Below are positions 1 through 20,789 of a stretch of DNA of 64,000 nt, piece after piece. Every line of letters begins with the position of its first letter. Positions within the stretch are counted from its first letter, which is position 1. The notes below the pieces were generated by a model, which was not told where the DNA came from, did not search any database, and worked only from the letters and a program-made list of their open reading frames with translations. Made by a program: the position numbers and the translations under genes. Origin of the DNA: a virus; IMG/VR virus record IMGVR_UViG_3300011116_000225, positions 1 to 64,000 of that record; one strand, given 5' to 3'.

Positions 1-127
1 CGGGTCCAATGAATTTGGCCGAAGCGGCCAACGCTCTCGAGGGAATACTGCCAGTTGATGGAGAACAGTCGCCCGAAGAGACGCAGTTGCCAGAGTCCGA
101 AGAGGATGATGGCGCGGCCTTGAGCGA
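1..127 (+). repeat. Exact 127-base repeat, first copy at the window edge
   Basis: Bases 1-127 are identical to 35506-35632; base 128 is the first difference (g here, a in the other copy). The repeat lies inside the scaffold gene. A perfect match of exactly 127 bases that begins at the first base is the length of a common assembler k-mer. Confidence 0.9.
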
Positions 128-962
128 GGAATCATCAGCGGATGCAGACGCTGCTGATGAGGAAACGCAAGAGGAACAGTCCGAAGAAAATGAGGAATCC
201 GAGGAGCAAGAACAGCCAACCGTCTTCACCGTCAAAGTTGACGGCAAAGAAGTTGAGGTGACGCTGGACGAGCTCCAAAAGGGTTACTCACGGACCCAGG
301 ACTACACACGCAAAACGCAGCAGATCGCTGAGATCAGGAAACAGGTCGAGGCTGAGACTGAGGCAGTGCGTGCCGAACGTGCGCAGTACGCACAGATGTT
401 GGGAGCGTTACAGGCCCAGCTCCAAAATGCTGAACCTCAAGTCGATTGGGACCGTCTTTACCAAGAAGACCCCATCGAGTGGGTGCGGCAAAAAGAGGTG
501 ATGCGCGAGAGACAAGAAAAACTCCAAGCGATTCAATTTGAACAGCAACGGGTGGCTCAACTCTCGCAGCAAGAGCAGCAACAGCATTTTGAGTCGCATT
601 TGAAAGAGCAGCACACAAAGCTGCTCGAGGTCATTCCCGAGTGGAAAGACCCGGCAAAGGCGAAAGCAGAAAAGCAAATGCTGGTCGAATTCGGTCAAAA
701 GACTGGATTCACACCTGAGGAGCTCAAAGCCATTGTGGATCACAGGGCGGTTGTCGCGTTGCGTAAAGCAGCGCTTTACGACCAGATGATGACCAAGCGA
801 AAAGCAATCACCCCCGTGACCAATAACGGTCCACGGCCTGCCAAGCCAGGTGCAGCAGGCCGGGTATCCCAAACAACTGAGGCAACTCGCGCCAAACAGC
901 GTCTCGCAAAGACTGGCCGTGTCGATGATGCGGCCTCCGCAATCTATCAACTTTTGAGGTAA
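3..962 (+). CDS. Scaffold-like protein, 5' end cut by window
   Basis: The frame is open to the window edge. The complete homologue at 35472 has 14 more residues, so the first methionine here (base 9) is internal. The N-terminal third is strongly acidic (runs of E, D and S). The middle and C-terminal parts are rich in Q, E, K and A and should form long coiled coils, as in phage scaffolding proteins. It sits directly before the major capsid gene, with only 4 bases between stop and start, which is the usual place for a scaffold. Its role would be to guide procapsid assembly and then leave the head. The family is assigned from composition and position, not from a conserved motif. Confidence 0.8.
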   Translation, partial: GPMNLAEAANALEGILPVDGEQSPEETQLPESEEDDGAALSEESSADADAADEETQEEQSEENEESEEQEQPTVFTVKVDGKEVEVTLDELQKGYSRTQDYTRKTQQIAEIRKQVEAETEAVRAERAQYAQMLGALQAQLQNAEPQVDWDRLYQEDPIEWVRQKEVMRERQEKLQAIQFEQQRVAQLSQQEQQQHFESHLKEQHTKLLEVIPEWKDPAKAKAEKQMLVEFGQKTGFTPEELKAIVDHRAVVALRKAALYDQMMTKRKAITPVTNNGPRPAKPGAAGRVSQTTEATRAKQRLAKTGRVDDAASAIYQLLR

Positions 963-966
963 CACC

Positions 967-1929
967 ATGACTATCGTCACCAATACCTTCACGAGCTACT
1001 CTGCAAAGGGTATCCGCGAAGACCTGAGCAATGTGATCACCAACATTGCTCCCGAAGAAACTCCATTCCAATCCAACATTGGCCGCGAAACCATCTCCAA
1101 CACTTTGTTTGAGTGGCAGACCGATACCCTGGCAGATGCCGCAGCAAATGCGCAGCTCGAGGGTGATGACGTTGGATCGTTTGATGCTGTCACCGCCACC
1201 GTGCGTTTGACCAACTATGCTCAGATTTCGCGCAAGACCATCATCTTGTCGAACACTGAGGAAGTGGTCAACAAGGCAGGACGCCGCAGTGAACTAGCTT
1301 ATCAAATCGCGAAACGCGGGAGCGAGCTAAAGCGCGATCAAGAATTCATTTTCTTGAATGGCGGTGTTGCTGTTGCAGGCAATACGACCACTGCTCGCGT
1401 GACTGCCTCTTTGGGCGCATTTGTCAAGACCAACACTGACAAGCAGACCAACGGCGTTGATCCCAGCTACACCACGCTGCCCAACAGTGCTCGCACTGAC
1501 GGCAACGTGCGCACCTTCACTGAGACGATCCTCAAGAACGTCATCCAGAAGGTGTGGACTGCTGGCGGCACTCCAAAGATCCTGATGGTTGGCCCTGTCA
1601 ACAAGCAGCGCGTCTCTGGTTTCTCTGGCATTGCCTCTTCACGTTTCAACATCGATGGCGGTGCAAAACCCGCAACATTGATCGGCGCTGTAGATATTTA
1701 TGTCTCAGATTTCGGAAATGTGAGTACTATAGCCAACAGGTTCCAACGCGAGCGTGATGCATGGGTGATCGACCCCGACTACGCCAAGATGACTGTGCTG
1801 CGTCCTTACCAGCAAGTCGAATTGGCTAAGACTGGTGACGCTGAAAAGCGTATGTTGTTGATTGAGTACGGCTTGAAAGTGCTGGCTGAAAATGCCCACG
1901 GCCTGGCCGCTGACTTGGTCACCTCCTGA
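967..1929 (+). CDS. Major capsid protein, SU10/DUF5309 type
   Basis: This 320-residue protein opens with a segment (TYSAKGIREDLSNVI-like, then PEETPFQSNIG) typical of the SU10-type major capsid family, formerly DUF5309. Members adopt the HK97 fold and form the icosahedral shell. Residues 130-170 (GGVAVAGNTTTARV, then TNTDKQTNGVDPSY) and the C-terminal part on positions and velocity of the fold are also typical. It follows the scaffold gene by 4 bases. A tract near bases 1670-1745 is almost unchanged at DNA level between A and B, including a rare ATA codon, although the gene otherwise differs at many synonymous sites. Confidence 0.88.
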   Translation: MTIVTNTFTSYSAKGIREDLSNVITNIAPEETPFQSNIGRETISNTLFEWQTDTLADAAANAQLEGDDVGSFDAVTATVRLTNYAQISRKTIILSNTEEVVNKAGRRSELAYQIAKRGSELKRDQEFIFLNGGVAVAGNTTTARVTASLGAFVKTNTDKQTNGVDPSYTTLPNSARTDGNVRTFTETILKNVIQKVWTAGGTPKILMVGPVNKQRVSGFSGIASSRFNIDGGAKPATLIGAVDIYVSDFGNVSTIANRFQRERDAWVIDPDYAKMTVLRPYQQVELAKTGDAEKRMLLIEYGLKVLAENAHGLAADLVTS

Positions 1930-1938
1930 TAACTGACT

Positions 1939-1967
1939 AGGAGACGGGGCCAGGGAAACCTGGCCCC
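1939..1967 (+). promoter_or_regulatory. Ribosome-binding site separated from its start by a perfect hairpin
   Basis: AGGAG at 1939-1943 is followed by a perfect 9-bp stem with a GAAA tetraloop (1946-1967), then ATG at 1974. Without the hairpin the SD-to-start distance would be 31 bases; with it folded out the effective spacing is 8 bases (2 before, 6 after). No other SD lies near the start. The layout is identical in unit B. There is no U-tract after the stem, so it is not a standard terminator. Confidence 0.7.
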
Positions 1968-1973
1968 ACTTAC

Positions 1974-2288
1974 ATGGACAAAATAATTCTTGATGTAAGC
2001 CCCGACAAGGGCATCACGCGCACCTGGCATTTCAATCCTGATACCGAAGAAACCACGATCCAAACTTCTCAGGACGTGACGGCAGTGATTGAGGCCAACA
2101 AGCGTGACTTTGCAGCGATTGACAACAGGGCAAACTGGCAAGGCGAATGGCATCACGTTGCCAGCATCCCAGAGGCCTTGTATTACAAGCTCAAGGCTGA
2201 AGGCAAGCTCGATGATGAGGCTTACATGAAGAAGTGGCTTAACGATCCAGACAATCGATTCTTTCGCGTGAGGCCTGGCCAAGTATGA
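1974..2288 (+). CDS. Conserved small phage protein after the capsid
   Basis: 104 residues with no membrane segment or recognised motif. The C-terminus (MKKWLNDPDNRFFRVRPGQV) is strongly conserved between A and B. It overlaps the next gene by ATGA, so the two are translationally coupled. Translation seems to rely on the SD placed before the hairpin at 1946-1967. Its place between capsid and adaptor suggests a virion or head-completion role, but nothing in the sequence proves it. Confidence 0.75.
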   Translation: MDKIILDVSPDKGITRTWHFNPDTEETTIQTSQDVTAVIEANKRDFAAIDNRANWQGEWHHVASIPEALYYKLKAEGKLDDEAYMKKWLNDPDNRFFRVRPGQV

Positions 2289-2938
2289 ATTACATTGCCG
2301 TTTGCACGCCAGCGCGTGACCAGGTACACACCAATTACACATATTGCATGGTCAACATGGTGGCGTATCACACGCTCAACACCACTGATGCCATCAGTCT
2401 GAAACTGTTGCAGGGCACGCTGATTCAGAACCAGCGTGCTGACTTGTGCCTGGATGCGTTGCGTGAAGGCTGCACGCATATCTTGTTCATTGACTCAGAC
2501 ATGACCTTTCCCCAGGACATGATCCAGCGGCTACTGAAACATGACGTTGACCTGGTTGCGGCCAACTGCGCCAGGCGCAGAATGCCCACAGGTCCAACCG
2601 CGCAAAACTATGACGAGAACGGCAAGCGCAAACCGATCTATTCAATGCCAGAATCCACTGGTCTGGAAGAAGTTGGCAGCGTTGGCACCGGCATCATGCT
2701 GATCAAGCGCGGCGTCTTTGAGGGTATGTCAGAACCTTGGTTTGATATGCCTTGGCAGTACGACACCAGGGGCTACATGGGCGAGGACGTGTTCTTTTGC
2801 AAGAAGGCAAAAGAGCTTGGGTTCAAGGTGTATATTGACCATGACGTGAGCAAAGAGATCGGCCACATTGGCACGTTTGAATTCAGACATGAGCACACCT
2901 GGATCGTCAAAGAGGAAATGGAAAAAGAGGCAAGCTGA
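2285..2938 (+). CDS. Glycosyltransferase-like protein, GT-A fold
   Basis: 217 residues. The segment HILFIDSDMTF around residues 65-75 carries a DxD-type motif (D70-S-D72), which in GT-A enzymes holds the metal and nucleotide-sugar. The N-terminus (YIAVCTPARDQVHTNY) and a conserved RADLCLDA stretch near 51-58 match a phage-encoded family related to GT2 transferases. A likely role is to add sugar to virion proteins, since it lies between capsid and adaptor genes; the acceptor and sugar donor are unknown. Start and stop overlap neighbours by 4 and 1 bases. Confidence 0.75.
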   Translation: MNYIAVCTPARDQVHTNYTYCMVNMVAYHTLNTTDAISLKLLQGTLIQNQRADLCLDALREGCTHILFIDSDMTFPQDMIQRLLKHDVDLVAANCARRRMPTGPTAQNYDENGKRKPIYSMPESTGLEEVGSVGTGIMLIKRGVFEGMSEPWFDMPWQYDTRGYMGEDVFFCKKAKELGFKVYIDHDVSKEIGHIGTFEFRHEHTWIVKEEMEKEAS

Positions 2939-3561
2939 TGGCACTCACAACATACACCGAGCTGAAAACATCAGTTGGCGATTGGCTCAACCGCACCGAC
3001 CTGACAACGGTAATACCTGATTTCATCGCGTTGGCCGAGGCCCAGATTGAGCGCCAATTGCGCACCCGGCAGATGATCGTGAGATCCACGGCATCAATCT
3101 CCACCGAGTACAGCGCGGTGCCTGATGATTTCCTGGAGACAAAGTCCATCAAGCTCACCGGCACCAACCCTGTCACGCCTTTGGGGTTTGAGACTGTCGA
3201 TTCACTTGATGCCTTGAGCGTGCAGTACCGATCCAGTGGCGTGCCGATCTTCTTTGGCATTGTTGGCGGCCAGATCCGAGTCCTGCCGATTCCTGACGCT
3301 GCCTATACCGCAGAGCTTGCGTATTACGCCAAGTTGACGAAGTTGTCATCTACCGTGTCAACCAACTGGCTGCTGGCGCAAGCGCCTGACGTTTACCTGT
3401 ACGGCGCATTGCTCCAGGCTGCGCCTTACCTGCAAGATGATGCGAGAATTACGGTGTGGTCATCGTTGTACCAAGCAGGCCTGGATCAGTTGCAGATTGC
3501 AGATGATCGAGGGTCAACCAGTGGCGGTGCATTGCTGACCAGGGCAAAAACATTTGGGTGA
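2938..3561 (+). CDS. Head-tail adaptor, SU10 adaptor type
   Basis: 207 residues. The N-terminal pattern (TYTELKTSVGDWLNRTDLTTVIPDFIALAEAQIER, spread over residues 4-38) is the hallmark of the phage adaptor family found with SU10-type capsids. These proteins form a ring below the portal and join it to the tail. The frame overlaps the preceding gene at TGATG. The homologue in unit B differs at only a few residues. Confidence 0.85.
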   Translation: MALTTYTELKTSVGDWLNRTDLTTVIPDFIALAEAQIERQLRTRQMIVRSTASISTEYSAVPDDFLETKSIKLTGTNPVTPLGFETVDSLDALSVQYRSSGVPIFFGIVGGQIRVLPIPDAAYTAELAYYAKLTKLSSTVSTNWLLAQAPDVYLYGALLQAAPYLQDDARITVWSSLYQAGLDQLQIADDRGSTSGGALLTRAKTFG

Positions 3562-3565
3562 TTAG

Positions 3566-3751
3566 ATGGTAACGACAACCAAAGGCGAGATGGACGAGTC
3601 ACTGCTGGAAAAGCGTGAGGGGTCTATTGATACTGATACCGAGACAACGAGCTGGGTTGAGTATTGGCATGAGGGTGAGTTGGTGCATCGATCAGTCAAC
3701 ATGGTGCTGAAACGTGGCGTCTTTGCTGACGGCATCAGTCAACAAATTTAA
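3566..3751 (+). CDS. Small conserved protein of unknown function
   Basis: 61 residues, acidic first half (EMDESLLEKREGS) and a short conserved core (WVEYWHEGELVHRSVNMVLKR). It sits 4 bases after the adaptor and 10 before a virion protein gene, and unit B keeps it nearly unchanged, so it is a real gene. I do not recognise a family. Confidence 0.7.
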   Translation: MVTTTKGEMDESLLEKREGSIDTDTETTSWVEYWHEGELVHRSVNMVLKRGVFADGISQQI

Positions 3752-3761
3752 GAGGTAAATC

Positions 3762-4217
3762 ATGGCGAATACTCAGGCAATGTGTACCAGTTTTAAGGGT
3801 GAGCTGCTTGTCGGCCACCACAACTTTGGCACTGGTGTTGTCCGAGCTGCCACTACGGCAGACACATTCAAGGCTGCCCTGTACCTGGCAAGCGCCACCG
3901 TCAATGCGTCCACCACGGCATACAGCTCAACTGGTGAAGTGACCGGCACCGGATACACGGCTGGTGGCGTCACAGTGACGTTTGGCACGCCTCCAAGCAC
4001 CTCTGGAACCACGGCATTCGTTACCCCCAGCGCCAGCATCAGTTACAGCGCGGTGACCCTCTCAACGGCCTTTGATGCAGTCTTGATCTACAACTCGACC
4101 CAGTCAAACAAGGCAGTCAGCGTCCACACTTTCGGCAGCCAGACCGTGACTGCTGGAACCTTCACGCTGACCATGCCAACCAATGATGCAAGCACCGGCC
4201 TGATCCGGTTGGCTTGA
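3762..4217 (+). CDS. Putative virion structural protein, Thr/Ser/Ala rich
   Basis: 151 residues, rich in T, S, A and V with alternating hydrophobics, which suggests a beta-sandwich. No Cys clusters beyond C8 and no membrane segment. The layout after adaptor genes fits a decoration or tail-surface protein; this is inference from position. A good SD (AGAGG, then TAAATC) precedes ATG 3762. Unit B's copy differs mainly between residues 28 and 95. Confidence 0.65.
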   Translation: MANTQAMCTSFKGELLVGHHNFGTGVVRAATTADTFKAALYLASATVNASTTAYSSTGEVTGTGYTAGGVTVTFGTPPSTSGTTAFVTPSASISYSAVTLSTAFDAVLIYNSTQSNKAVSVHTFGSQTVTAGTFTLTMPTNDASTGLIRLA

Positions 4218-4233
4218 TCTAAGGGGCAGCGCC

Positions 4234-4938
4234 ATGGCTGCTTACGGCACAGGGTACTACGGCCTTGGCGTCTATGGCATAGGCAATGTCGTTATCAGCG
4301 GCAACCAGGCAACTGGTGCCGTTGGCAGCGTCCTAGCCAGCAGATCAATTCAAGAAGATGGCACCATTGCCACCGGCAATGTCGGAACCGTCACTCTCAC
4401 CATCACCATTGCCATCACGGGCAATGCAGCCACGGGTGCCGTTGGCACGCTGGCACCAGACTCATCCAAAGCAGTCACCGGCAATGCGGCCACATTGGCC
4501 GTTGGCACTGTTGCACCTGCTAGGTCAATTGACCTCAACGGCAACGCTGCCACGGGTGCTGTTGACTCTGTTGGGGTTTCTAGGTCCACGGCAACAACTG
4601 GCAACGCTGCCACGGGTGCTGTTGGCACCATGTCGGCAGAGGTGATTTCTTTCCAGGACATTACAGGTGTTTCTGGGACTGGTGAAGTTGGCAGTGCGTC
4701 AAACGTCATCTCAGTTGCGATAATCGGCAATGAGGCGGTTGGATCTGCTGGAGTAATGGTTGGGTTTGGATGGGGTGCAGTACCTGATACATCTGAAACC
4801 TGGACTGACCAGTCAGATACACCAGAGACGTGGTCACCAGTGTCAGACACGGCAGAGACATGGACTCCAGAGTCAGACACCACTGAAACATGGACCGAGA
4901 TCGCAGACAATTCAACATCGTGGCAGCAGGCCGCATAG
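4234..4938 (+). CDS. Repeat-built virion protein with DTxETW tail
   Basis: 234 residues made of tandem units. Residues about 15-130 repeat a unit of about 19-20 residues around G-N-x-A-T-x-A-V-G-(S/T)-V. The C-terminal part (about 185-230) repeats a 10-residue unit of form (S/A)D-T-x-E-T-W-(T/S), five copies here. N-terminus is Gly/Tyr rich. Repeats like these form extended beta structure on virion surfaces. It lies between a probable decoration protein and the tail fibre. Unit B has fewer copies of both repeats. Confidence 0.65.
   Translation: MAAYGTGYYGLGVYGIGNVVISGNQATGAVGSVLASRSIQEDGTIATGNVGTVTLTITIAITGNAATGAVGTLAPDSSKAVTGNAATLAVGTVAPARSIDLNGNAATGAVDSVGVSRSTATTGNAATGAVGTMSAEVISFQDITGVSGTGEVGSASNVISVAIIGNEAVGSAGVMVGFGWGAVPDTSETWTDQSDTPETWSPVSDTAETWTPESDTTETWTEIADNSTSWQQAA
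4290..4640 (+). repeat. Tandem repeats of about 57-60 bp coding for GNxATGAVG units
   Basis: The core GGCAA(T/C)GC(A/T)GCCACNGGTGC-like element recurs at a spacing of roughly 57-60 bases inside the gene at 4234, encoding one GNAATGAVG motif per unit. Copies differ by several bases, so the array is old and not a recent slippage product. Confidence 0.7.
4785..4925 (+). repeat. About 30-bp repeats coding for the DTxETW motif
   Basis: Five successive units read as SDTxETWxxx, the last degenerate (DNSTSW). Unit B carries three at 40285-40380, so copy number changes between sister phages. Confidence 0.7.
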
Positions 4939-4947
4939 GGGTAAAAA

Positions 4948-6273
4948 ATGGCAGATACGACAACGACCAATCTTTTATTGACCAAACCAGAGGTGGGTGC
5001 AAGCACCGACACCTGGGGCACAAAGATCAATACTGACCTTGACACTGTTGACGCAGTATTCAAGGGCGATGGCACTGGCACCAGCGTTGGATTGAATGTT
5101 GGAGCTGGCAAGACGCTGGCAGTTGCTGGGACGTTGACAGTGACTGGATCGGCAACTGTTGAGTTTGCTGATGGGTCTGCCGCATCCCCATCAATTACCA
5201 ATGATGGCGATACCAACACGGGCATCTTGTTCCCCGCTGCTGATACTGTTGCCATTGCTACTGGCGGGACTGAGATCGCAAGATTTGACAGCGCAGGTAA
5301 CTTGGGATTGGGTGTTACGCCTAGTGCTTGGGGAACTGCAAGTGGGCAAAAAGCATTTCAAATTGGAACTAGCGGTTTTGCTTTATCTTCTAGTGGCGCT
5401 GGCTCTGGTGACGGTTCGCTTACATGGAACGGTTACTACAACGGTACAAACTGGATTTACAGTTACACAGGTGGTGCAGCTAGTCGTTTCCGCTTGAATG
5501 AAGCAGGTGCGGCATGGTTTACCGCCCCATCAGGAACAGCAGGTAACGCAATCACCTTCACCCAAGCAATGACGCTTGATGCTAGTGGGAATTTGGGTGT
5601 TAACCAAACATCACCCAGCTTCAAGATTGATGCCATTGGAAGCACGACAAATAGTTCTGGCATTGTTACCACATTGCGTTTAAAGAATGGTGGTACAGCG
5701 GCAAATGATGGCGCAAAGATTCTTTTTACAGCAGGAACATCAACTGATGGCGCTGGTATTGGCTCTGGTGGGCAAGCATTAGATTCTGCTGACTTGCGGT
5801 TTTATGCTGGAGGTAATACAGAGCGTGCCCGTATCGACTCCAGCGGTAACTTGCTGTTGGGGACTACTGCAAACATTACCAGCGCCAAATTTAATTTGGC
5901 ACAAGGCGCATCAAACGGCGTCATGTACCAACTTGCACAGTTCACTGGTGGCTCGGGAACAGGTGGTAATAATGTTGGTGGATTAAAGCGCCAATCTACT
6001 GCATCTGTTGCAAACAGCGCCACAACAATCTTAAGTTCAATGAGTTTTGGAGAATTGATTGTTGTAACAGGAACAGGTTCGGGTGCTATTTTTGCAGACT
6101 TGTTAATGGGAAGCTACAACACAATTGCAGTTATCTCATCAAACACTCAGCAAGGAAGCCCTGCCTCCAGAACTTATTCAGTGTCTTCTGGTGCATTGCA
6201 ATTGACAATGGGAAGTGCTACTGCAATGGCAGTCACGGCGCAATCAATAGTCACTGGCGCTTTAGGAACTTAA
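4948..6273 (+). CDS. Tail fibre / receptor-binding protein, variant A
   Basis: 441 residues. The first 68 residues ([21 protein letters not shown], then [19 protein letters not shown]) are shared with unit B and probably anchor the fibre to the tail. After base 5152 the two diverge fully. The variable part has repeated fibre motifs such as [29 protein letters not shown] and [14 protein letters not shown], which are typical of phage fibre beta-helices. The region is lower in G+C than neighbouring genes. It should recognise the host surface; the receptor cannot be told. Confidence 0.8.
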
Positions 6274-6286
6274 AAAGGAGTTAATC

Positions 6287-6580
6287 ATGTCAACAATCGT
6301 TTGGAATATATCTCAACTTGACCGACAAACCTCAGATGGTTTTGTCACAACCGCCCATTGGCAAGCAACTGCAACAGATGGGGATTACTCTGCATCCATT
6401 GTGAACACTTGCTCATGGAGTGATGGTTCTCCAACAGTGCCCTACGCCTCTCTGACACAAGAAACTGTATTGGGATGGATATGGGCCAATGGTGTTGATA
6501 AAGACGCTGTTGAAGAGGCTTTAGCTGCTCAGATTGAGTTGCAGAAAAACCCTGTTAAAGCCACTGGAGTACCTTGGTAA
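6287..6580 (+). CDS. Small protein paired with tail fibre, variant A
   Basis: 97 residues (VWNISQLDRQTSDGFV, then QATATDGDYSAS). Similar small proteins follow fibre genes in many podoviruses and are sometimes annotated as DUF7936, but I cannot confirm the family here. A strong SD (AAAAAGGAG) precedes ATG 6287. Unit B has an unrelated 81-residue protein in this slot, so this gene probably moves with the fibre. Confidence 0.65.
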   Translation: MSTIVWNISQLDRQTSDGFVTTAHWQATATDGDYSASIVNTCSWSDGSPTVPYASLTQETVLGWIWANGVDKDAVEEALAAQIELQKNPVKATGVPW

Positions 6581-6774
6581 TGGACAGCGTGGAAAAAGAA
6601 TTCGCCATCCACCAGGCCATTTGCGATCAGCGATACAAAGCGATTGAGGAAAAGCTCGAGTCTGGAAAAAGCCGAATGCAAAAGATCGAGATCCAGCTCT
6701 ATATCGTTATCGCTGCCATCTTGTTTGGCCCTGGCGTTGCCGCTGACATTGTGAAAAAACTGCTTGGCATCTAA
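6580..6774 (+). CDS. Small single-span membrane protein
   Basis: 64 residues. A charged helical N-half (VEKEFAIHQAICDQRY) precedes one hydrophobic segment at the C-terminus (LYIVIAAILFGPGVAADIV). I chose ATG 6580, which overlaps the previous stop, over the upstream TTG at 6574, because unit B's homologue supports the start MDS/MTDS. It begins the membrane and lysis cluster. The function is unknown; a holin-like or anti-holin-like role is possible. Confidence 0.65.
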   Translation: MDSVEKEFAIHQAICDQRYKAIEEKLESGKSRMQKIEIQLYIVIAAILFGPGVAADIVKKLLGI

Positions 6775-6777
6775 GAT

Positions 6778-7455
6778 GTGGATCCAATCAGCATCCTACT
6801 TATGGCCTCAAGCGCATTCAGCGCCATCAAACAGGGCATTGCAACGTACAAGGATGTTAAGAACACTGCCGGTGACGTTAAGAAGATCGTCAATGAAATT
6901 GCTGGGATGTTTGGGCCAAACCCAACCAAAGAGCAAAAAAAGCAGATCATTGCAGAGCAAAAGCGCGTCCAGGAAGTTGCAGCCTACGACCCCAACCAGG
7001 TCATGGGTGACATTGCAAAGCGCTTGGGTGAATTCATGCGGCATATGCAGCAGATCCAAGACTTCTATAAAGAAGAAGAACGCAAGTCAAAAGAAGAGGT
7101 ATACGAAGGTGTTGACTCTTTGGCCGAGCGTGCCTTGCAGCGTACCCTTGTGCTCACCCAGTTGAGGCAGATGGAGACTGACTTGCGCGAGCAAATGATC
7201 TATCAGTCGCCGCCAGAGTTGGGAGATTTGTGGACGCGGTTCAATGAGATGCGCGAGCAGATTGCAGTTGAGCAAGAGCAAGCCAGGGAAGTGCGTGATC
7301 AGCGTGAGGCGCAGGCAAGATGGCAACGAAGAAGAATGATCGGGGATCTGCAAGACAAAGCAATCTACCTGGCCGCCGCCTTGTTGATAATCGTCTACCT
7401 GAGCGTGTTCTGGTCACTCCTCGTGATGGACAGAAAAGTGCGATGGGGTTTCTGA
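6778..7455 (+). CDS. Coiled-coil protein with C-terminal membrane anchor
   Basis: 225 residues from a GTG start; the ATG two bases upstream is out of frame. Residues 20-195 are charged and helical with long coiled-coil stretches (KEQKKQIIAEQKRVQEV; LREQM; EIAVEQEQAREVRDQREAQARWQRR). One membrane span lies near the end (IYLAAALLIIVYLSVFWSLLVM), followed by a short basic tail. Very similar in unit B. It may be a virion or membrane-associated assembly protein; I do not recognise a family. Confidence 0.7.
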   Translation: MDPISILLMASSAFSAIKQGIATYKDVKNTAGDVKKIVNEIAGMFGPNPTKEQKKQIIAEQKRVQEVAAYDPNQVMGDIAKRLGEFMRHMQQIQDFYKEEERKSKEEVYEGVDSLAERALQRTLVLTQLRQMETDLREQMIYQSPPELGDLWTRFNEMREQIAVEQEQAREVRDQREAQARWQRRRMIGDLQDKAIYLAAALLIIVYLSVFWSLLVMDRKVRWGF

Positions 7456-7637
7456 TTGCGCTCATCGCAATGGTCTTGGTGTTTTGCTTGATGCTGCCAA
7501 TTGTGGGGATCATGTACTTTGATACCTTGTCAACGCAAAAGGAAAGCAAAGCGCAGATTGAGCGAATGGAGAGATTGCGCAAACAACTTGAGGAAGAACG
7601 CAAGAAGATGGATCAGGCCAACAGGAAGGAAGAGTAA
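7443..7637 (+). CDS. Small single-span membrane protein with basic coiled tail
   Basis: 64 residues from ATG 7443, which overlaps the end of the preceding gene by 13 bases. N-terminal span (MGFLIALIAMVLVFCLMLPIV) followed by a highly charged helix (KAQIERMERLRKQLEEERKKM). The same frame is open back to 7320, but that would create a long overlap with the coding sequence at 6778; the downstream start is preferred. Topology resembles small phage membrane proteins near lysis genes. Confidence 0.6.
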   Translation: MGFLIALIAMVLVFCLMLPIVGIMYFDTLSTQKESKAQIERMERLRKQLEEERKKMDQANRKEE

Positions 7638-7838
7638 ATGCGAATGCTGCTTTGTCTGACCATCATGGTGCTGGCTGGGTGCGAGGATCGTTATCGCTAC
7701 GTTTGCCAGAACCCAAACAACTTTGAATTGAAAGAGTGCCAAAAACCTCAGTGTCAATTCACGCAGACGTGCCCAGAGTACCTTGTTGCTCCAGTGCTTG
7801 AAAAGAAGGTGGAACCCGATGTTGTCAAGTCAAAATAA
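7638..7838 (+). CDS. Small Cys-rich phage lipoprotein
   Basis: 66 residues. The N-terminus is a lipoprotein signal: basic MRM, hydrophobic LLCLTIMVL, lipobox LAGC with C15 as the lipid-modified residue. The mature part has four more cysteines (C23, C34, C39, C45), enough for two disulphides in the periplasm. Similar lipoproteins occur beside lysis genes in podoviruses. It could act in lysis or block superinfection at the outer membrane; the sequence does not decide. Confidence 0.75.
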   Translation: MRMLLCLTIMVLAGCEDRYRYVCQNPNNFELKECQKPQCQFTQTCPEYLVAPVLEKKVEPDVVKSK

Positions 7839-8295
7839 ATATAGCCCCGAAGAGATCGAGGTCAGGATCTGGGGTTTTGTTGTGGTGATGATCACCATCA
7901 TCTTGTTTGGCATTGTGATCGCCCTGCTATACAGCGTGACGTTTGTGACGCAACCCATCAAGTCAATGGCACCCATTGACCAGGCATACACCAAGATGCT
8001 CAATGACATTGTGTTGCTGATTGTTGGCGGTATCGGCGGCATTGTTGGCAAGCGTGCCGTGGGGGCCGTCAGTCAGGCCGTTACACCTACACCGCCACCT
8101 ACACCTGCCCCGGCTGCACCAGCGCCTTCTATGCCTGTTTCTGCGCCTCCCAGCGGTGCTTTGCCAGTCTGGATCAATCCACCTTTGGATGAGAGCTGGA
8201 CGCCACCGCCTCCACCGACCACGCCACCCGAGCACCTGGAACCAGATCACGTCCGCGAGGAGATCGCGGCAGCAAGACGTGAGGCCGGGCAGTGA
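7819..8295 (+). CDS. Probable holin, two membrane spans
   Basis: 158 residues from ATG 7819, 20 bases inside the preceding lipoprotein gene; a frame open to 7783 is unlikely to be used. Two hydrophobic segments, WGFVVVMITIILFGIVIALLY and MLNDIVLLIVGGIGGIVGKR, are joined by a short loop. The C-terminal 75 residues are rich in Pro and Ala and end with a charged helix. Followed at once by spanin genes and an endolysin, this is the best holin candidate in the cassette: it would open the inner membrane to release the endolysin. The long Pro-rich tail is unusual for a holin. Confidence 0.6.
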   Translation: MLSSQNKYSPEEIEVRIWGFVVVMITIILFGIVIALLYSVTFVTQPIKSMAPIDQAYTKMLNDIVLLIVGGIGGIVGKRAVGAVSQAVTPTPPPTPAPAAPAPSMPVSAPPSGALPVWINPPLDESWTPPPPPTTPPEHLEPDHVREEIAAARREAGQ

Positions 8296-8759
8296 ATCCA
8301 TACCTGATCATTGCGGCCATGATTGCTGTTGGCAGTGCATACGTTTATGGCCATCACAGTGGATATGCCGACCGTGACGCTGAGATGCAGGCTCATATTG
8401 CCAAGCTCAATGAAGAGTCACGCGCCAAAGAGCAAGAGATGGCAGCGTCTCTCAACAACCAAACAGAAACATTGCGAAAGGCCAAGAATGAGATCAACAA
8501 AAAACAGTCTGACATTAATGCTCTTGTTGATGCTGGCCGGTTGCGCCTCCCGATCCCAGCCGCCACAAGTTGCGTACAAACCACCCCAGATGCCAGCCCT
8601 CCCATCAGAGATCGGGGAGAAGAAAGACCCGACCCTTACCGAGAGGCTATTAAAGCTGTTGTCGCCATCGCCATTGAAGGAGATAGAAACACAGTCCAGC
8701 TCAATGCCTGCATCGACACCTACAACAAAGTGAGGGAGCAGATCAATGGTCAACGCTGA
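8292..8759 (+). CDS. Rz: Inner-membrane spanin (Rz-like)
   Basis: 155 residues from a GTG start at 8292, overlapping the previous stop. One N-terminal span or signal anchor (YLIIAAMIAVGSAYVYG) is followed by a long charged coiled coil (residues 30-85), as in i-spanins. With the embedded Rz1 lipoprotein it would link inner and outer membranes and fuse them in the last step of Gram-negative lysis. Sits directly before the endolysin gene. A single conserved Cys pair is seen in the C-terminal half. Confidence 0.85.
   Translation: MNPYLIIAAMIAVGSAYVYGHHSGYADRDAEMQAHIAKLNEESRAKEQEMAASLNNQTETLRKAKNEINKKQSDINALVDAGRLRLPIPAATSCVQTTPDASPPIRDRGEERPDPYREAIKAVVAIAIEGDRNTVQLNACIDTYNKVREQINGQR
8488..8733 (+). 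CDS. Rz1: Outer-membrane spanin (Rz1-like), embedded in Rz
   Basis: 81 residues in the +1 frame wholly inside Rz. The signal peptide MRSTKNSLTLMLLLMLAGC ends in a clear lipobox (LAGC), and the mature protein is Pro-rich (SQPPQVAYKPPQMPALPSE), both typical of Rz1 o-spanins. The nested layout matches the lambda pair. The frame is open further upstream but ATG 8488 starts the signal peptide. Unit B keeps the same length and lipobox. Confidence 0.85.
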   Translation: MRSTKNSLTLMLLLMLAGCASRSQPPQVAYKPPQMPALPSEIGEKKDPTLTERLLKLLSPSPLKEIETQSSSMPASTPTTK

Positions 8760-9342
8760 TCAACTCAAAAAGCTGCACATTGGCCCTGAGTGGGTTGATG
8801 CGCTCAATGAAACCTTTGGCCGGTTCAATATATCCACCAAGAGACAGCAGGCCGCATTCATTGGTCAGTGCGGCCATGAATGTGGGAACTTCAAGGTGCT
8901 GCAAGAGAACTTGAATTACCGCGCAGCCACTCTGATGAAGTTGTGGCCCAAGCGTTTCCCCACTCTTGACATTGCCAACCAGTACGCTGGAAACCCAAAG
9001 AAGATCGCCAACATGGTCTATGCCAACCGCATGGGTAATCGTGACGAGGCATCAGGGGATGGGCACCGTTTTTTTGGCAGAGGTTGCATCCAATTGACTG
9101 GATACAGCAATTATTTTCACGCTGGCCAAGCCTTGGGCGTTGACTTTGTCATGCAGCCCGAGCTGGTGGCCACGCCAAAGTACGCTGCCTTAACGGCAGG
9201 CTGGTTCTGGTCAACGCATGACTGCAACCGCCTGGCCGAGGCCGGGGATTGGGCAGCACTCACCAAGAAGATCAACGGTGGGACAATTGGCCTTGAAGAC
9301 CGCATCAAACACACCAATGAGGCTTTGGCAGTCCTGACATGA
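8746..9342 (+). CDS. Endolysin, glycoside hydrolase family 19
   Basis: 198 residues. GQCGHECGNFK at 40-50 carries the family 19 catalytic Glu (E45), and RGCIQLTGYSNY near 112-123 is the conserved substrate-cleft motif. GH19 phage enzymes cut the glycan strands of peptidoglycan. No signal peptide, so it needs the holin for export. A good SD (AGGGAG) lies 7 bases before ATG 8746, inside the end of Rz. Confidence 0.9.
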   Translation: MVNADQLKKLHIGPEWVDALNETFGRFNISTKRQQAAFIGQCGHECGNFKVLQENLNYRAATLMKLWPKRFPTLDIANQYAGNPKKIANMVYANRMGNRDEASGDGHRFFGRGCIQLTGYSNYFHAGQALGVDFVMQPELVATPKYAALTAGWFWSTHDCNRLAEAGDWAALTKKINGGTIGLEDRIKHTNEALAVLT

Positions 9343-9992
9343 CAAACCTGTATCAGCAGCTCGAAACCCCGGCACCGCCAGATCTGCCCTCACCGGGTCA
9401 GGTCTATGACGAGCGCCTGACTGCGCAAACCCATCGCGGCTTGCTGGTGTACTTTCGCAAGCTGACCAATATCTTGTCAACGGTCCTTGGGCCTCGAGGT
9501 GGCAAGTACTTGAACCTGCCTTATGGCGCGTTTCAAGATGGGACAGACCAGACGGCAGCCAATACGACAACTGCCTACGCCATCACATTTGACACGACAG
9601 ACTATTCAAATGGGATCACTTTGTCAAATTCATCACGTCTGAACGTGTCCCAGGGTGGTTTGTACAACGTGCAATTCAGCGTGCAATTCAAAAACACAAC
9701 AAATGACACGCAAGACGTTGAGGTCTGGTTTCGCAAGAATGGCACTGACATTGCAAAGTCCAACTCAAGGTTTGGTCTATCCCAAAGAAAAAGTGCTGGA
9801 GATCCATCTCACACTGTTGCAGCATTGAATTACTTTGTGGACCTGGCCGAGAACGATTACCTGCAACTCATGTGGCGGCCATCAGACGTTGGTGTGTCCA
9901 TTGAGCAGTACGCTGCCGGGACCAGTCCAACCAGGCCAGCGATTCCATCAGTGATTGCCACCGTGAGTTTTGTATCGAATCTTTCCGCATAA
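9339..9992 (+). CDS. Virion protein with jelly-roll-like C-terminal half
   Basis: 217 residues, start overlapping the endolysin stop (ATGA). The N-terminal part (RLTAQTHRGLLVYFRKLTNILSTVLG) looks helical and may attach to the particle. The rest (GGLYNVQFSVQFKN; DVEVWFRKNGTDI; DYLQLMWRPSD; SVIATVSFVS) has the strand pattern of C1q/TNF-like jelly rolls often found on phage tails and fibres. Assigned by strand pattern, not by an exact motif. Confidence 0.65.
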   Translation: MTNLYQQLETPAPPDLPSPGQVYDERLTAQTHRGLLVYFRKLTNILSTVLGPRGGKYLNLPYGAFQDGTDQTAANTTTAYAITFDTTDYSNGITLSNSSRLNVSQGGLYNVQFSVQFKNTTNDTQDVEVWFRKNGTDIAKSNSRFGLSQRKSAGDPSHTVAALNYFVDLAENDYLQLMWRPSDVGVSIEQYAAGTSPTRPAIPSVIATVSFVSNLSA

Positions 9993-9999
9993 TCCCATC

Positions 10000-11481
10000 A
10001 TGGCACTCACCGCACTCAGAATCCCCCCAGGCGTGTACCGCAACGGCACTGAATATCAGTCAGCCGGGCGGTGGTTTGACGCCAACCTGGTTCGATGGTT
10101 TGAGGGTACTTTGCGGCCCTGGGGTGGATGGCGCAAGAGATCGAGCAGCCAACTGACCGGGTCATGCCGGGGACTGATCACCTGGCGCGACAACTCAGGG
10201 GACCGCTGGATCGCTGCCGGTACGAATTCCAAGCTCTACGCCATGAATGAGGCTGGCACGCTCAAAGACATTACGCCAACAGGCTTGACTGCCGGTGTTG
10301 CTGATGCCGTCATCAAGACCGGGTATGGGTATTCCACTTATGGAAACTATGCCTATGGTGTAGCAAGGCCTGACACTGGCACCGTGACGCCAGCCACGAC
10401 CTGGAGTCTGGATACCTGGGGCGAGTACCTGGTCGCGTGCTCAGACGCTGATGGCAAGCTCTACGAGTGGCAATTGGGATTTTCAACTCCAACCCTGGCC
10501 GTTGCCATCACCAACGCGCCAACAGGCTGCAATGCCGTGATGACCACGGCAGAGCGCTTTGTATTTGCGCTGGGCGCTGGTGGCAATCCCCGTAAGGTTC
10601 AGTGGTGCGATCAGGAAAATAACACCGTATGGACCCCGGCAGCCACCAACCAGGCAGGGGATTTTGAGCTTGCAACTGTCGGTTCTCTCAAGGCAGGCAA
10701 GCGCGTGCGAGGTGTCAATCTGCTCTTTACAGATGTTGACGTTCACGTTGGCACCTACATTGGCCTGCCATACGTTTACTCATTTGAAAAAGCCGGGTCT
10801 GGCTGCGGGTTGATCTCCACACAGTCTGTGGCGGCCATTGACACAGCAGCGATCTGGATGAGCAAATCAGGTTTCTGGGTTTATGACGGGTATGTCAAGC
10901 CACTGGTTTCTGATGTTGGTGACTACATTTTCCAAAACATCAACTACAACCAGGCCAGCAAGATTTATTGCGTCCACAACTCAAAGTATGGCGAGATCAT
11001 CTGGTTTTACCCGTCAAGCCAGTCAAATGAAAATGACTCATATGTCACCTACAACTACCGCGAGAACCACTGGTCGATTGGCAGTCTGGCTCGCACCGCG
11101 GGAACTGACCGCGGCGTCTACTTGAATCCCTTGATGGTTTCATCTGACGGGTACATTTACGAGCACGAGGTTGGGTTTGCGTATGACTCTGTCGCGCCTT
11201 ACGCCGAGTCTGGCCCGGTGGAGATCGGAACTGGTGAGCAGGTGATGCGGGTGCGTCAAATCATCCCTGACGAGCAAACACTGGGCGAGGTTGTTGTGTC
11301 GTTCAAGACGCGAATGTATCCAACCTCAACTGAGACAACTTACGGACCCTATGCGGCAAGCCAGCCGACAGACGTGCGGTTTACTGGTCGCCAGGTCAAG
11401 GTCAGGTACACAGGGGCGGTGCTCGATGACTGGAGAGTCGGCATCAACCGTTTGGACGTGATCGCCGCTGGCAAGCGTTGA
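10000..11481 (+). CDS. Tail structural protein, P22 gp10-like candidate
   Basis: 493 residues from ATG 10000; a frame open to 9970 overlaps the previous gene and is not preferred. Opens with ALRIPPGVYRNGTEYQSAGRW, FDANLVRW and LRPWGGWRKR, a pattern shared by podovirus proteins that close the head or build the tail hub (packaged-DNA stabilisation type). The body is rich in aromatic strands (WSLDTWGEYLVACSDADGKLYEW; GEIIWFYPSS) suggesting a beta-propeller. Strongly conserved in unit B. Confidence 0.7.
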   Translation: MALTALRIPPGVYRNGTEYQSAGRWFDANLVRWFEGTLRPWGGWRKRSSSQLTGSCRGLITWRDNSGDRWIAAGTNSKLYAMNEAGTLKDITPTGLTAGVADAVIKTGYGYSTYGNYAYGVARPDTGTVTPATTWSLDTWGEYLVACSDADGKLYEWQLGFSTPTLAVAITNAPTGCNAVMTTAERFVFALGAGGNPRKVQWCDQENNTVWTPAATNQAGDFELATVGSLKAGKRVRGVNLLFTDVDVHVGTYIGLPYVYSFEKAGSGCGLISTQSVAAIDTAAIWMSKSGFWVYDGYVKPLVSDVGDYIFQNINYNQASKIYCVHNSKYGEIIWFYPSSQSNENDSYVTYNYRENHWSIGSLARTAGTDRGVYLNPLMVSSDGYIYEHEVGFAYDSVAPYAESGPVEIGTGEQVMRVRQIIPDEQTLGEVVVSFKTRMYPTSTETTYGPYAASQPTDVRFTGRQVKVRYTGAVLDDWRVGINRLDVIAAGKR

Positions 11482-11497
11482 GGCTTAAAATTTGACC

Positions 11498-11899
11498 ATG
11501 AAAGACATTAGGCAAATCCTCACCGAAGACCTGGCGAAGAACTATGGCGGCTTTGCCATGACGGTTGATGCCTATTTTGATGGTTTGATGAATGCGCCCA
11601 AGACGGGGAACTTTGTTGTGCGTCAGGGTGACACTCTGATCTTGACAAAGAAGATTGAGAAAAACGGCATCGAGTTTCATTGCATCAATGGTGAGCGCGC
11701 AAAAGACCTTGTTGCCAATGTGCAAAAGTACCTTGATGACTTGAAGGAGCATGGGTATGACTATGCCGTCACGTTCTACGACAACCCCCGAATCAATGAC
11801 TTGATTGCACAACTCACTTACCCATCAGAGATCAAGAAGATTGATGATGGATTGTTCAGAACATACGAAGCCACAATGAGGTTCAAATGGGCGCATTAA
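11498..11899 (+). CDS. Conserved small phage protein before ejection genes
   Basis: 133 residues from ATG 11498 (an in-frame TTG lies 6 bases upstream). Mixed alpha/beta, e.g. DTLILTKKIEKNGIEFHCING and YDYAVTFYDNPR. No membrane span or catalytic motif that I recognise. A position between the tail protein and ejection proteins is like that of T7 gp13, but I see no sequence match. Unit B is nearly identical except near residues 105-125. Confidence 0.65.
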   Translation: MKDIRQILTEDLAKNYGGFAMTVDAYFDGLMNAPKTGNFVVRQGDTLILTKKIEKNGIEFHCINGERAKDLVANVQKYLDDLKEHGYDYAVTFYDNPRINDLIAQLTYPSEIKKIDDGLFRTYEATMRFKWAH

Positions 11900-13263
11900 A
11901 TAAATTAGGACAGGCCGCATCCAACTTTGTTGCTGCCCCTGCGGCAAGTATTAGTACTGGTTTCGCAGAGTTGGCAAAGCCAGCAGAGGCAGCCTTAAAA
12001 TTTTCCACAGAAAAGCCGCTAGAGGCTTTGGCTCTGGGGACTGGAGCATACTTTGCAGCTCCATATATTATGGGAGCATTGGGTGGCGCTGGAGCAGGCG
12101 CTGCTGGTGCAGGCGCTGCCGATCTGGCTGCGTATGACGCTATGGCTGGTTTGACTGCTGGTGGCGCAGGCGCTGGCGCTGCTGGCGCTGGCGCTGCTGG
12201 CGCTGGTCTTGCTGGCGGTGCCGCTGCTGGTGCTGGCAGTGCTGCCGGTGGCAGTTTTCTCAGTAATATCACGCCAACCCAGGCAATCATAGGCGCAGGT
12301 CTGGCCGCAAAGGCATTGGGTGGCAGCAGCACGCCGTCATCTTCAACAAGCTCAACGTCCATTGACCCTGACATTAAGGCCGCATATTTGCAGCAGTTAA
12401 CTGACGCCAGAACCGCAGCGGCGGGTCTTGGAACCCGGCAATTTGAGGGTTTTACACCTGGCTATGCAACGGCAGAGCAGCAGCTCACGGCCACCGGCAT
12501 TGGCGGCGCTGGTCAACAGACCACCAACCGGGCTGCCGAGCTGGCACTGGCAGAGGCTGGCTACACACCCCAGCAGATCCAGGCCATGACGGGTGCCCAG
12601 TACATGGGTGCATATCAAAACCCTTACGAGACACAAGTTGTGCAGGGTACGCTGGCAGATATTGAGCGTCAGCGCCAGATTGCCCAGCAGGCCCAGCAGG
12701 TCAAAGCAATTGGGGCTAAAGCATTTGGCGGTTCGCGTCAGGCAGTGGCTGAGTCACTTGCAAACGAGGACTACACGCGCCAGGTAGCAAACATTGCTGC
12801 CCAGTTGCGTGCCCAAGGATTCACCACGGCTGCCGGGCTTGGCCAGACTGATGCTGCCAGGGCCATGGAGGCGGCCAGGGCCAACATTGCCAACCAGATT
12901 GCTGGTGCAGGCATACGCCAGACTGCCGTGGGCCAGTTGGGTGCTTTGGGTGCCCAACAGCAAAACCTTGGCATGACGGGTGCGCAGGCCGTGATGACTG
13001 CCGAGCAGCAGCGCCAGCAGTTGGCCCAGGCGCGGCTTGACGCTGCACGCAACCTGGCTGCCGAGCGCCTTGGCCTGACTGGCAGTGCTTTGGGACAGAA
13101 CGTGCCAAACCTTGGCGGCACGACAACCACGCCGATTTACCGCAATCAGATGGCAAGTGGTCTTGGCGGTGCTCTTGGTGGCGCTCAGTTGGGCAGCATC
13201 TTGGGTGGCAAGGAATACGCTGGTTATGGTGCCATCTTGGGCGGTTTGCTGGGCTTGGGTTAA
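11887..13263 (+). CDS. Ejection (internal virion) protein 1, Ala/Gly rich
   Basis: 458 residues. The N-terminal 130 residues are very rich in Ala and Gly (GAGAGAAGAGAA-type runs) and the rest is Gln/Ala-rich helix (TPQQIQAMTGAQY; ANQIAGAGIRQTAVGQLGALGAQQQN). The C-terminus ends in a Gly/Leu hydrophobic segment (GAILGGLLGLG) that could insert into a membrane. These are traits of podovirus proteins stored in the head and ejected to form the DNA channel. It starts 13 bases inside the previous gene. Confidence 0.7.
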   Translation: MGALNKLGQAASNFVAAPAASISTGFAELAKPAEAALKFSTEKPLEALALGTGAYFAAPYIMGALGGAGAGAAGAGAADLAAYDAMAGLTAGGAGAGAAGAGAAGAGLAGGAAAGAGSAAGGSFLSNITPTQAIIGAGLAAKALGGSSTPSSSTSSTSIDPDIKAAYLQQLTDARTAAAGLGTRQFEGFTPGYATAEQQLTATGIGGAGQQTTNRAAELALAEAGYTPQQIQAMTGAQYMGAYQNPYETQVVQGTLADIERQRQIAQQAQQVKAIGAKAFGGSRQAVAESLANEDYTRQVANIAAQLRAQGFTTAAGLGQTDAARAMEAARANIANQIAGAGIRQTAVGQLGALGAQQQNLGMTGAQAVMTAEQQRQQLAQARLDAARNLAAERLGLTGSALGQNVPNLGGTTTTPIYRNQMASGLGGALGGAQLGSILGGKEYAGYGAILGGLLGLG

Positions 13264-13275
13264 GGGAAAAACATC

Positions 13276-14913
13276 ATGGCAGATTTCAATCTTGGCTTGC
13301 TGGGCGACATTTTTGGCGGCGGCACGTCTGCCCTGAGTGAGTACCTGACGCCTCAACAACAAGAGTCAATGCAGCGCCAAGCGCTGCTGTCCACGGCTGC
13401 GGCCCTGCTCCAAGCAGGTGGCCCATCAACAACCCCCATATCCCTTGGCCAAGCGCTTGGTGCAGGCTTGCAGGCTGGGACTGGCGCATATGGCAAGGCT
13501 CAAGAGGGTGCGATTCAGCAGCTGCTGACACGGCAGAAGTTGGATGAGTACAAGCGCCAGATGACCATGCAAGAAAACATTGCAAAGATTCTTGGTGGCG
13601 GTGGTGCTGCTGCACCGATGCCTGCGCGTGGTGCGCCCATCACGCCCGAGCAGGCCATTGCGATGCCTGGGCTGCCTGCTGGGCCTACGATGCAACGCGC
13701 TGAGATGATCAGGCAACCTGCACCGGCAGCAGCTCCAGTGCCTCAAAACGTCATCAAGGCCAACCAATACCGCCAATTGGCAGACTTGATGGCCGCATCA
13801 GGCAAGGGCGAGGATGCCAAGCGTTACCAAGAAATGGCCGAAAAGTTGGCCCCGACCTTTGAAGAGACTCAAGGCGACATTTACTTCAACGCTCAAGGCG
13901 AGGCAATACAGCGCACCAAGACTGGTGGCTTTAAGGTTGTGCCGTCAGAGTTTGCCCCGATGGACAAGCCAACCGGCACTCCCATGATGATGACTGATGC
14001 TCAAGGCAAACCTGTCCAGGTGCAGCGTTATGAGTCTGGAAAATTACAGGCCATCACTGACTTTGGACCTCCGCGAGAAATTGTGCTTGAGAAGTTGGGT
14101 GACCGAGTCATCGCGGTTGACAAAAACAAAGTCACGGCAGGCCAGCAATTCAATGTCGGCCTTGCGCCTCAAGTGGTTGGCGGTGCTGAGACGGGTTACT
14201 ACGTAGTCGGTGGCGCTGGCCGAGGTGCTGGTCTGGCCGCGCCCATGCCTGCGCCTGCTGGTGCGCCTGGTGCTGTTGTGCCTCCACCTGTTGCTGGAGG
14301 CGCACCTCGAGCACCTGCGGCACCGGCTGCTGGCGCTGCTGCACCTACTGGTCCCCAGCCCATCATTCCTGGAACTGGCAAGGCATTTGGCAACGAGAAA
14401 GATCTGCGCTCTGAATTTACTGCACAGGCAAAACCTTTTGTTGAACTGGCGCAGGCATATCAAAAGATTGAGACTGCCGCAAAGAACAACACAAGTGCTG
14501 GTGACATTGCACTGATTTATGGGTTTATGAAGGTTTTGGATCCCGGCTCAGTTGTGCGTGAGGGTGAATTTGCAACTGCTGCCAATGCCGGCGGCGTTGC
14601 TGATACCGTCAGGAATATGTACAACCGTGCATTAAATGGTCAGCGCATTGGTGAAAACATCAGGAATGATTTTCTGGGTCAGGCTCGCAACATCATTGAG
14701 TCGCAGCGTGTGCTGTCAGATGACATGGTTGCACGTTATACAAGCGTGGCGCAAAACTATAAACTCGACCCCAATCAAGTTGTTTTTGACCCGTTCAAGC
14801 GCATGAAGACGCCTGCTCAGATTGCTGGTGCTGCCGCTGCTGAAAAAACCACTGCGCCTGCACAGTCGGGCAATTTCTACGACAGATTTAACCTTGTTCC
14901 GAGGGCCAAATAA
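13276..14913 (+). CDS. Ejection (internal virion) protein 2
   Basis: 545 residues. N-terminal helical segment with hydrophobic face (NLGLLGDIFGGGTSALSEYLTPQQQE), long Ala/Gln coil, a central Pro/Ala/Gly linker (residues about 310-360), and a charged C-terminal domain (about 375-510). The stop overlaps the next start (TAATG). Unit B keeps the ends but differs in the region around residues 195-270, where unit B has different residues and a few more of them. Confidence 0.7.
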   Translation: MADFNLGLLGDIFGGGTSALSEYLTPQQQESMQRQALLSTAAALLQAGGPSTTPISLGQALGAGLQAGTGAYGKAQEGAIQQLLTRQKLDEYKRQMTMQENIAKILGGGGAAAPMPARGAPITPEQAIAMPGLPAGPTMQRAEMIRQPAPAAAPVPQNVIKANQYRQLADLMAASGKGEDAKRYQEMAEKLAPTFEETQGDIYFNAQGEAIQRTKTGGFKVVPSEFAPMDKPTGTPMMMTDAQGKPVQVQRYESGKLQAITDFGPPREIVLEKLGDRVIAVDKNKVTAGQQFNVGLAPQVVGGAETGYYVVGGAGRGAGLAAPMPAPAGAPGAVVPPPVAGGAPRAPAAPAAGAAAPTGPQPIIPGTGKAFGNEKDLRSEFTAQAKPFVELAQAYQKIETAAKNNTSAGDIALIYGFMKVLDPGSVVREGEFATAANAGGVADTVRNMYNRALNGQRIGENIRNDFLGQARNIIESQRVLSDDMVARYTSVAQNYKLDPNQVVFDPFKRMKTPAQIAGAAAAEKTTAPAQSGNFYDRFNLVPRAK

Positions 14914-16970
14914 TGGCTACATCTAACATTGAGCGCGTGCAAGAGAACGTGCGCAGAATGCAGGCCCAGAATGCAACTGAGGCCGATGTTGTTGGATACC
15001 TAAAAACTGAGGGTTACACCCCAACACGGTTTGAGTCAGCAGTCGCCAGCGCCAAAAAGGTTGGCGGCCCACCCATTGATGCAGGCTTTGGCCGGTCCTT
15101 ACTTCAAGGCTTGACGTTCAACACTGCTGACGAGATTGAGGCCGCAATGCGTGCCTTAATGTCCAAAGGCATGAGCGCTTTTGATGCCCAGCAGACCTTG
15201 AGTGGTTTGGTGACTGGTCAGGCACCGCAGTCGCAATACGAGAAAGAACTGGCCAGAGTCCGCGCTGGAATCAAGCAGTACGAGGAACAGTACCCTGGCC
15301 GCGCCTTCACGGGTGAGCTTGTCGGCGGTTTGCTGCCTACGGCTGCGGCCTTGATTGCAGCTCCATTCACTGGAGGTGCCACGGCACCCGCTGCCGCTAC
15401 CGGAGCAGCTCGCACGGCTGCTGCTTTGCCGACCCTTGGCTCAATGACTCTCAGAGGTCTGGGCTATGGCGCTGCATCAGGTGCGGCTGCCGGGGCTGGC
15501 GGTGCCACTGGCGGCCCTGAGAGCAGGGTCATGGGTGGACTTGTTGGCGCTGGGTTTGGTGGTGTTCTTGGTGCTGCTGCACCGACAGTGACCAGTGCCA
15601 TTGGTAGTGGTGTAGGTAAATTTACACAGGCCGTTGGCATGACGCAACCTGTTGACGCTGCCACCAAGGCGCGTGAACTGATCGCCAAAAAGTTGGCCCA
15701 AGAGGGTCTTTCACCAGATGAGTTGGCGGCACGCCAGGCTGCCGTGGTGCGTACCCTGGGGGCCAGAGATGAGACGCTGGCTGACATTGGTGGTGAGGCC
15801 ATGCGCCGCCTGGCACGCGGGTCAATGGCAATCCCACAAGGCGCACAGACAGAGGTGCGTCAGATGCTGACCGAGCGTGCAGCAGGCGCTGGGCCGCGCA
15901 TTACTCAAGACATTACTGACTTGACGGCCATTGGTGCGCGTGACATTGGTGAGGTGGCAGATGAGATCATTCAGCGCAGATCTTTGTTGGCCTCTCCACT
16001 GTATAAGCAAGCATATGATGCCGGTCAGATCAATTCATTTGCCATTGACAATTTGCTGAAAAAGTCGAAAGACATTCAGTACGCCATTAGTGAGGCTCGC
16101 AGACTGCCTGAGTATGCAGATCTGCCAGACAACTCAATGCTGATGTTGGATAAGGCTTACAAGTATGTTGGTGGTCTTGCAAACAATGCCAAGTTATCTG
16201 GCAAAACATCACAGGCTGATGATTTAAATAATTTGCGTATATCTTTGCGCAATGCCATCACAGATCAAGTGCCTGTTTACGGCAAAGCTCTGGATACGTT
16301 CTCCAGCGAATCCCTACTCAAAGACGCGCTTGAGCTGGGTTCAAAGAACTTCTTGAAGAAGACCCCGGCAGAGATCAACCGTGAGATCAAGAAATTCCCA
16401 GGGGATGCCGAGCAGCAGATGTATCGCCTTGGCGCGGTTCAGTCTTTGCGTGACGAGATTTATGGGATGCGCGAGACGGCCAACATCGCTGACAAATTCC
16501 TCAACTCGCGTGAGATGCGTGACCGTATGCGCACTGTTTTCAACTCGCAAGGCGAGTACGAGGCATTCATCAAGAACTTGGAGCGTGAGCGCCAGATGGC
16601 CGTGACCAGGGGGAAAATTGAGGGGAATTCAGTTACCACTCCATTGGCTCAAGATGTTGCCGAAATAACTGCTCAGTCACCATCAGAGATGCTGCAAGCC
16701 GGTGCCCAGATGGTTGGTGGCAATATCACTGGTGGTGCTATGAACTTGATGCGCCAACTTGGACCACGTCTGCAAGGCATGAATGAGAATGTGGCAGAGC
16801 AAGTGGCTCGCAGCGTGCTTGACCCGAGGTTCATGCAACAGCAAGAATTCTTGTTGGGCTTGACCCCACTCATGGATCAACTGCGTCAGCGTGCGCTGCA
16901 ACAGCAAACCCGTGCTGCTGGGACCTCCACCAGCGCAGGCCAATTGGTTCCCGGCTTACTGGCAGACTAA
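14913..16970 (+). CDS. Ejection (internal virion) protein 3, large
   Basis: 685 residues. An N-terminal domain (IERVQENVRRMQAQNATEAD, VVGYLKTEGYTPTRF) resembles small helical domains of phage ejection proteins. A hydrophobic Gly/Ala block (about 130-235) follows, then a long charged helical region with DEIEAAMRALMSKGMSAFD earlier and EINREIKKFPGDAEQQ later. The layout suggests a membrane-crossing part and a soluble coiled part, as for the large ejection proteins of T7- and P22-like phages. No transglycosylase motif seen. Confidence 0.7.
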   Translation: MATSNIERVQENVRRMQAQNATEADVVGYLKTEGYTPTRFESAVASAKKVGGPPIDAGFGRSLLQGLTFNTADEIEAAMRALMSKGMSAFDAQQTLSGLVTGQAPQSQYEKELARVRAGIKQYEEQYPGRAFTGELVGGLLPTAAALIAAPFTGGATAPAAATGAARTAAALPTLGSMTLRGLGYGAASGAAAGAGGATGGPESRVMGGLVGAGFGGVLGAAAPTVTSAIGSGVGKFTQAVGMTQPVDAATKARELIAKKLAQEGLSPDELAARQAAVVRTLGARDETLADIGGEAMRRLARGSMAIPQGAQTEVRQMLTERAAGAGPRITQDITDLTAIGARDIGEVADEIIQRRSLLASPLYKQAYDAGQINSFAIDNLLKKSKDIQYAISEARRLPEYADLPDNSMLMLDKAYKYVGGLANNAKLSGKTSQADDLNNLRISLRNAITDQVPVYGKALDTFSSESLLKDALELGSKNFLKKTPAEINREIKKFPGDAEQQMYRLGAVQSLRDEIYGMRETANIADKFLNSREMRDRMRTVFNSQGEYEAFIKNLERERQMAVTRGKIEGNSVTTPLAQDVAEITAQSPSEMLQAGAQMVGGNITGGAMNLMRQLGPRLQGMNENVAEQVARSVLDPRFMQQQEFLLGLTPLMDQLRQRALQQQTRAAGTSTSAGQLVPGLLAD

Positions 16971-16976
16971 GGTGCA

Positions 16977-19046: not shown

Positions 19047-19048
19047 GC

Positions 19049-19234: not shown

Positions 19235-19263
19235 GATGGGACTCCTTTTGGTTGGTTGCGTGA

Positions 19264-20486: not shown

Positions 20487-20524
20487 TGATTCTTGCTCCT
20501 TAATTTGTTTCTTGCGCCAGCCAC

Positions 20525-20787: not shown

Positions 20788-20789
20788 GA

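Follow-up and report, generated by a model that had tools for sequence, protein, structure and literature searches.

The virus record IMGVR_UViG_3300011116_000225 is almost certainly a misjoined assembly contig in which two related but separate freshwater phage genomes, here called A and B, stand one after the other. Our window was the first 64 kb (64,000 nucleotides) of this 69,407-bp IMG/VR record, and the record's final 5.4 kb were also read. Unit A occupies positions 1 to 35505 on the plus strand and is one complete, circularly closing phage genome of 35,505 bp. Unit B, on the same strand, begins at 35506, reaches the end of the window at 64000 and continues to 69407 outside it; 33,902 of the 34,690 bp of this second phage genome are present.

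Self-comparison of the window showed that bases 1-127 are identical, letter for letter, to bases 35506-35632, and that the first base past the match differs (G at 128, A at 35633). The preliminary description had reported the match at these same coordinates, with a different base following. Among the exact repeats of the window this one is the longest. Those next in length, of 125, 105 and 87 bp, are all collinear pairs between the two units, as expected from two related genomes. Exactly one 127-mer is common to both units in the whole record, and it starts at 35506. When we compared the self-closed genomes themselves, taking B from its own single-copy record, the exact run common to both was 138 bp long and lay at A 35495-35632. 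Base 1 of the window is the start of the final 127-mer in this run, and because the contig begins there it displays only 127 of the 138 bp. The length of 127 given in the preliminary description thus holds for the copies in the contig, but for genomes A and B the common run is 138 bp.

These features are best understood in terms of how such data were assembled. For the Lake Soyang viromes 3300011114, 3300011115 and 3300007734 the assembler was SPAdes 3.5.0 or 3.8.2, run at k values of 27, 47, 67, 87, 107 and 127 (PMC7553992) on 2 x 300 bp reads of unamplified libraries of purified virions (ENA PRJEB15535). Because both units are nearly perfectly identical to Lake Soyang records, this record probably derives from the same series, and we take its assembler and k from those sister records. 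The repeat length of 127 equals the largest k of the sister assemblies, with this record's own sample presumed to belong among them.

We propose that phages A and B would have occurred in the same freshwater community, carrying the identical 138-bp stretch in common, and that in a de Bruijn graph with k = 127 each genome would form a loop through that stretch. The last vertex of the shared path would be the 127-mer found at base 1, from which A leads onward with G and B with A; the repeat is indeed the vertex at which A and B diverge. An assembler starting at this branching vertex on the A edge would circle A once (35,505 bases), re-enter the shared stretch at 35495-35632, cross there from A into B by exiting along B instead of A, and halt 788 bp short of closing B. 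The product would run through A and then B and hold the vertex k-mer twice, at base 1, where the path starts, and at 35506, from where the path exits into B-specific sequence at 35633. A path of this kind through a k = 127 vertex, if it is the one that the assembler chose, would explain why the match starts at base 1, why it is 127 bases long and why a single differing base follows it. One point counts against the misjoin: paired reads of 300 bp could span 138 bp, so that evidence against the join was available to the assembler, which left it unused.

We asked how unusual the 138-bp run is by permuting the match and mismatch columns of the A/B comparison within windows of 300-1000 columns. A run of 138 bases was reached in about 0.6-3.4% of shuffles, and the longest run averaged 85-97 bases. 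The run is therefore modestly longer than chance given the local A/B identity, an ordinary conserved stretch that is somewhat long. The exact length of 127 and the start at base 1, on the other hand, require the assembler and not chance. The stretch sits at the boundary of the portal and scaffold genes, and the copy at 1-127 encodes the N-terminal part of the scaffolding protein. The exact 127-mer is present in 15 viral contigs. In several more distant relatives the alignment sets in only at about base 141-157; the region is thus not deeply conserved, and we rejected a specially conserved functional element at 1-127.

Each unit is found alone elsewhere as a closed genome. For A this is IMGVR_UViG_3300011114_000234 (35,632 bp), which is 100% identical to record bases 1-35632. 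It consists of unit A and both begins and ends with the 127-mer, its cut falling on the same base as that of our record. A cut at this vertex would be expected if the vertex had branched in that assembly too, and by our estimate only one random break in some 35,000 would land on that base. It is conceivable in principle that the A-only record was itself trimmed out of this contig, in which case the identical cut point is not independent and the coincidence is void.

The 127 bp at both ends of the A-only record are also what would be seen if the repeat were a biological direct terminal repeat of this phage group, with two linear genomes joined at their repeats. This reading is negligible in our estimation, since close relatives carry a single, internal 127-mer. 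The related contig 3300007734_000623, also from the Lake Soyang study, has an exact 127-bp end repeat elsewhere, at a place matching A 22276 and in a different gene, which argues that the 127 bp are not a biological terminal repeat. Relatives from other studies have end repeats of 121 or 55 bp, or imperfect overlaps, at other genome positions, and this variety of lengths and places is what random breakage of a circular map gives. We accordingly rejected a physical terminal repeat, as both end positions and repeat lengths vary among relatives.

Unit B is found alone, circularly permuted, in IMGVR_UViG_3300011115_000140 (34,832 bp), the first and last 142 bp of which match but for one base, giving a circle of 34,690 bp. 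Over the 33,902 bp of B in our record there are only two differences from that genome, at 69374 and 69402, within the last 34 bases. Both are A-to-C differences from B, typical of an error-prone contig tip. In IMGVR_UViG_3300011115_000140 the end of B, the 127-mer and the start of B follow one another unbroken, so that the natural left neighbour of B is its own end and not the end of A. Our record stops within the portal gene of B and lacks the 788 bp needed to close the circle; a search of viral_contigs with the record's last 127 bases for a shared end vertex gave no match.

The flanks of the 127-mer in other contigs point in the same direction. Among the 15 contigs that carry it, an A-type left flank leads to an A-type right flank in both of the other, independent contigs of this type, L082 and L092, and a B-type left flank leads to a B-type right flank in all such contigs (AGAATTGTC). 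An A-type left flank with a B-type right flank was found in none of the 15 besides this record. The contigs with the 127-mer come from many samples, and their flanks mix A-like and B-like variants, which may reflect recombination among close strains.

That mixture, seen near the site in the relatives L079, L081, L084 and L090, together with the readiness of close phages to recombine in identical stretches, is what would be said for real recombination in a co-infected cell, the contig then being a minority molecule from a mixed head-to-tail concatemer of A and B. We consider this very unlikely. The start of the contig matches a k = 127 branching vertex to the base, both genomes are also found as monomers, and the A-left, B-right arrangement recurs in no other of the 15 contigs. 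The libraries were moreover unamplified and prepared from purified virions, and we would not expect a phage of 35 kb to hold a 69-kb molecule in its capsid. A more specific version, in which the two phages, infecting together, produce A-B hybrid concatemers, packaged or replicating, at a conserved portal/scaffold stretch prone to recombination and the contig has caught one of them, we regard as extremely unlikely.

The preliminary description had read the head-to-tail pair most simply as a graph path from A to B through one shared k-mer, and not as a biological tandem. This reading is borne out by the separate single-copy records of A and B, by the closure of B and of A relatives on themselves through the 127-mer, by the use of k up to 127 in the sister assemblies and by the cut of the A-only record on the same vertex. 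The record is continuous, with neither gap nor N, as would be the case for a true double-length phage or for a tandem of two integrated prophages, with A and B successive in one molecule. We nevertheless give this practically no credence: sister samples hold A and B as separate closed 35-kb genomes, the near-complete relatives are single copies of 34-37 kb, host sequence is absent both between and beside the units, and B breaks off within its portal gene.

Each unit is a 35-kb tailed phage, and A and B are about 82% identical overall. The annotation of unit A includes an SU10-type major capsid protein (Pfam SU10_MCP), a portal (SU10_portal), a terminase, a helicase/primase and a PD-(D/E)XK nuclease. 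At the join, a plus-strand ORF at 35472-36467 matches head scaffolding proteins and is chimeric, its upstream part coming from A and its downstream part from B. The reading frame is kept across the join because A and B do not differ there. Using BLASTP, we found a collinear partner in B for 27 of the 42 predicted A ORFs of at least 80 amino acids. That the A portal is without a partner is due solely to the end of the record, which falls within the portal gene of B. The preliminary description had warned that use of the whole contig would double-count every phage gene. Here "every" is a little too strong, since 27 of the 42 A ORFs are paired, the B portal is cut by the record end and A 16977-23350 is largely unpaired.

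The greatest difference between the units lies between A 16977-23350 and B 52153-57100, where most A ORFs have no BLASTP partner in B, and this most divergent stretch extends from the large internal virion-like protein to the PD-(D/E)XK nuclease. The tail-fibre-like proteins at 4948-6273 (A) and 40395-41420 (B) share about 70 residues at 90% identity and are divergent over the rest. Divergence of this kind is expected from host-range variation between co-occurring strains.

We believe that this artefact, which holds no biological novelty, deserves correction in the record. It ought to be divided into two genomes, A, which is complete at 35,505 bp, and B, which is 97.7% complete. Anyone treating the record as a single genome obtains the wrong genome size, a scaffold gene that is chimeric and gene counts that are doubled.

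Comparison with known systems places both the phages and the artefact. A megablast search of the phage collection gave no close DNA match to positions 1-20000. The nearest portal in that collection, 62% identical over 93% of its length, belongs to the uncultured Manatee Spring phage MW202879.1 (36,472 bp), a single-copy genome of similar size with a portal of the SU10 type; unlike the present record of A plus B, MW202879.1 holds one genome per record. As to the artefact, both k-mer-length end repeats and concatenated genomes have been described as products of assembly in the CheckV paper (PMC8116208). Our repeat resembles the end overlaps of k-mer length known from circular contigs (PMC8116208, Extended Data) in that its length equals the largest k, here 127. 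Those overlaps, however, arise at a random break in one genome, whereas the present one lies at the branching vertex of two genomes. The record likewise resembles the concatenated-genome contigs described in IMG/VR with CheckV (PMC8116208) in being a contig of approximately double length, which the assembler has made out of phage genomes that close circularly. CheckV-type concatemers consist of one genome repeated and are found by a k-mer frequency well above 1, whereas here two different genomes are joined, and the k-mer frequency was 1.026 at k = 31 and 1.09 at k = 15, close to the 1.0 of a single-copy genome. The units are so different from one another that the k-mer-frequency test yields nearly the value of one genome, and cross-strain joins of this kind may therefore escape notice in public virus collections.
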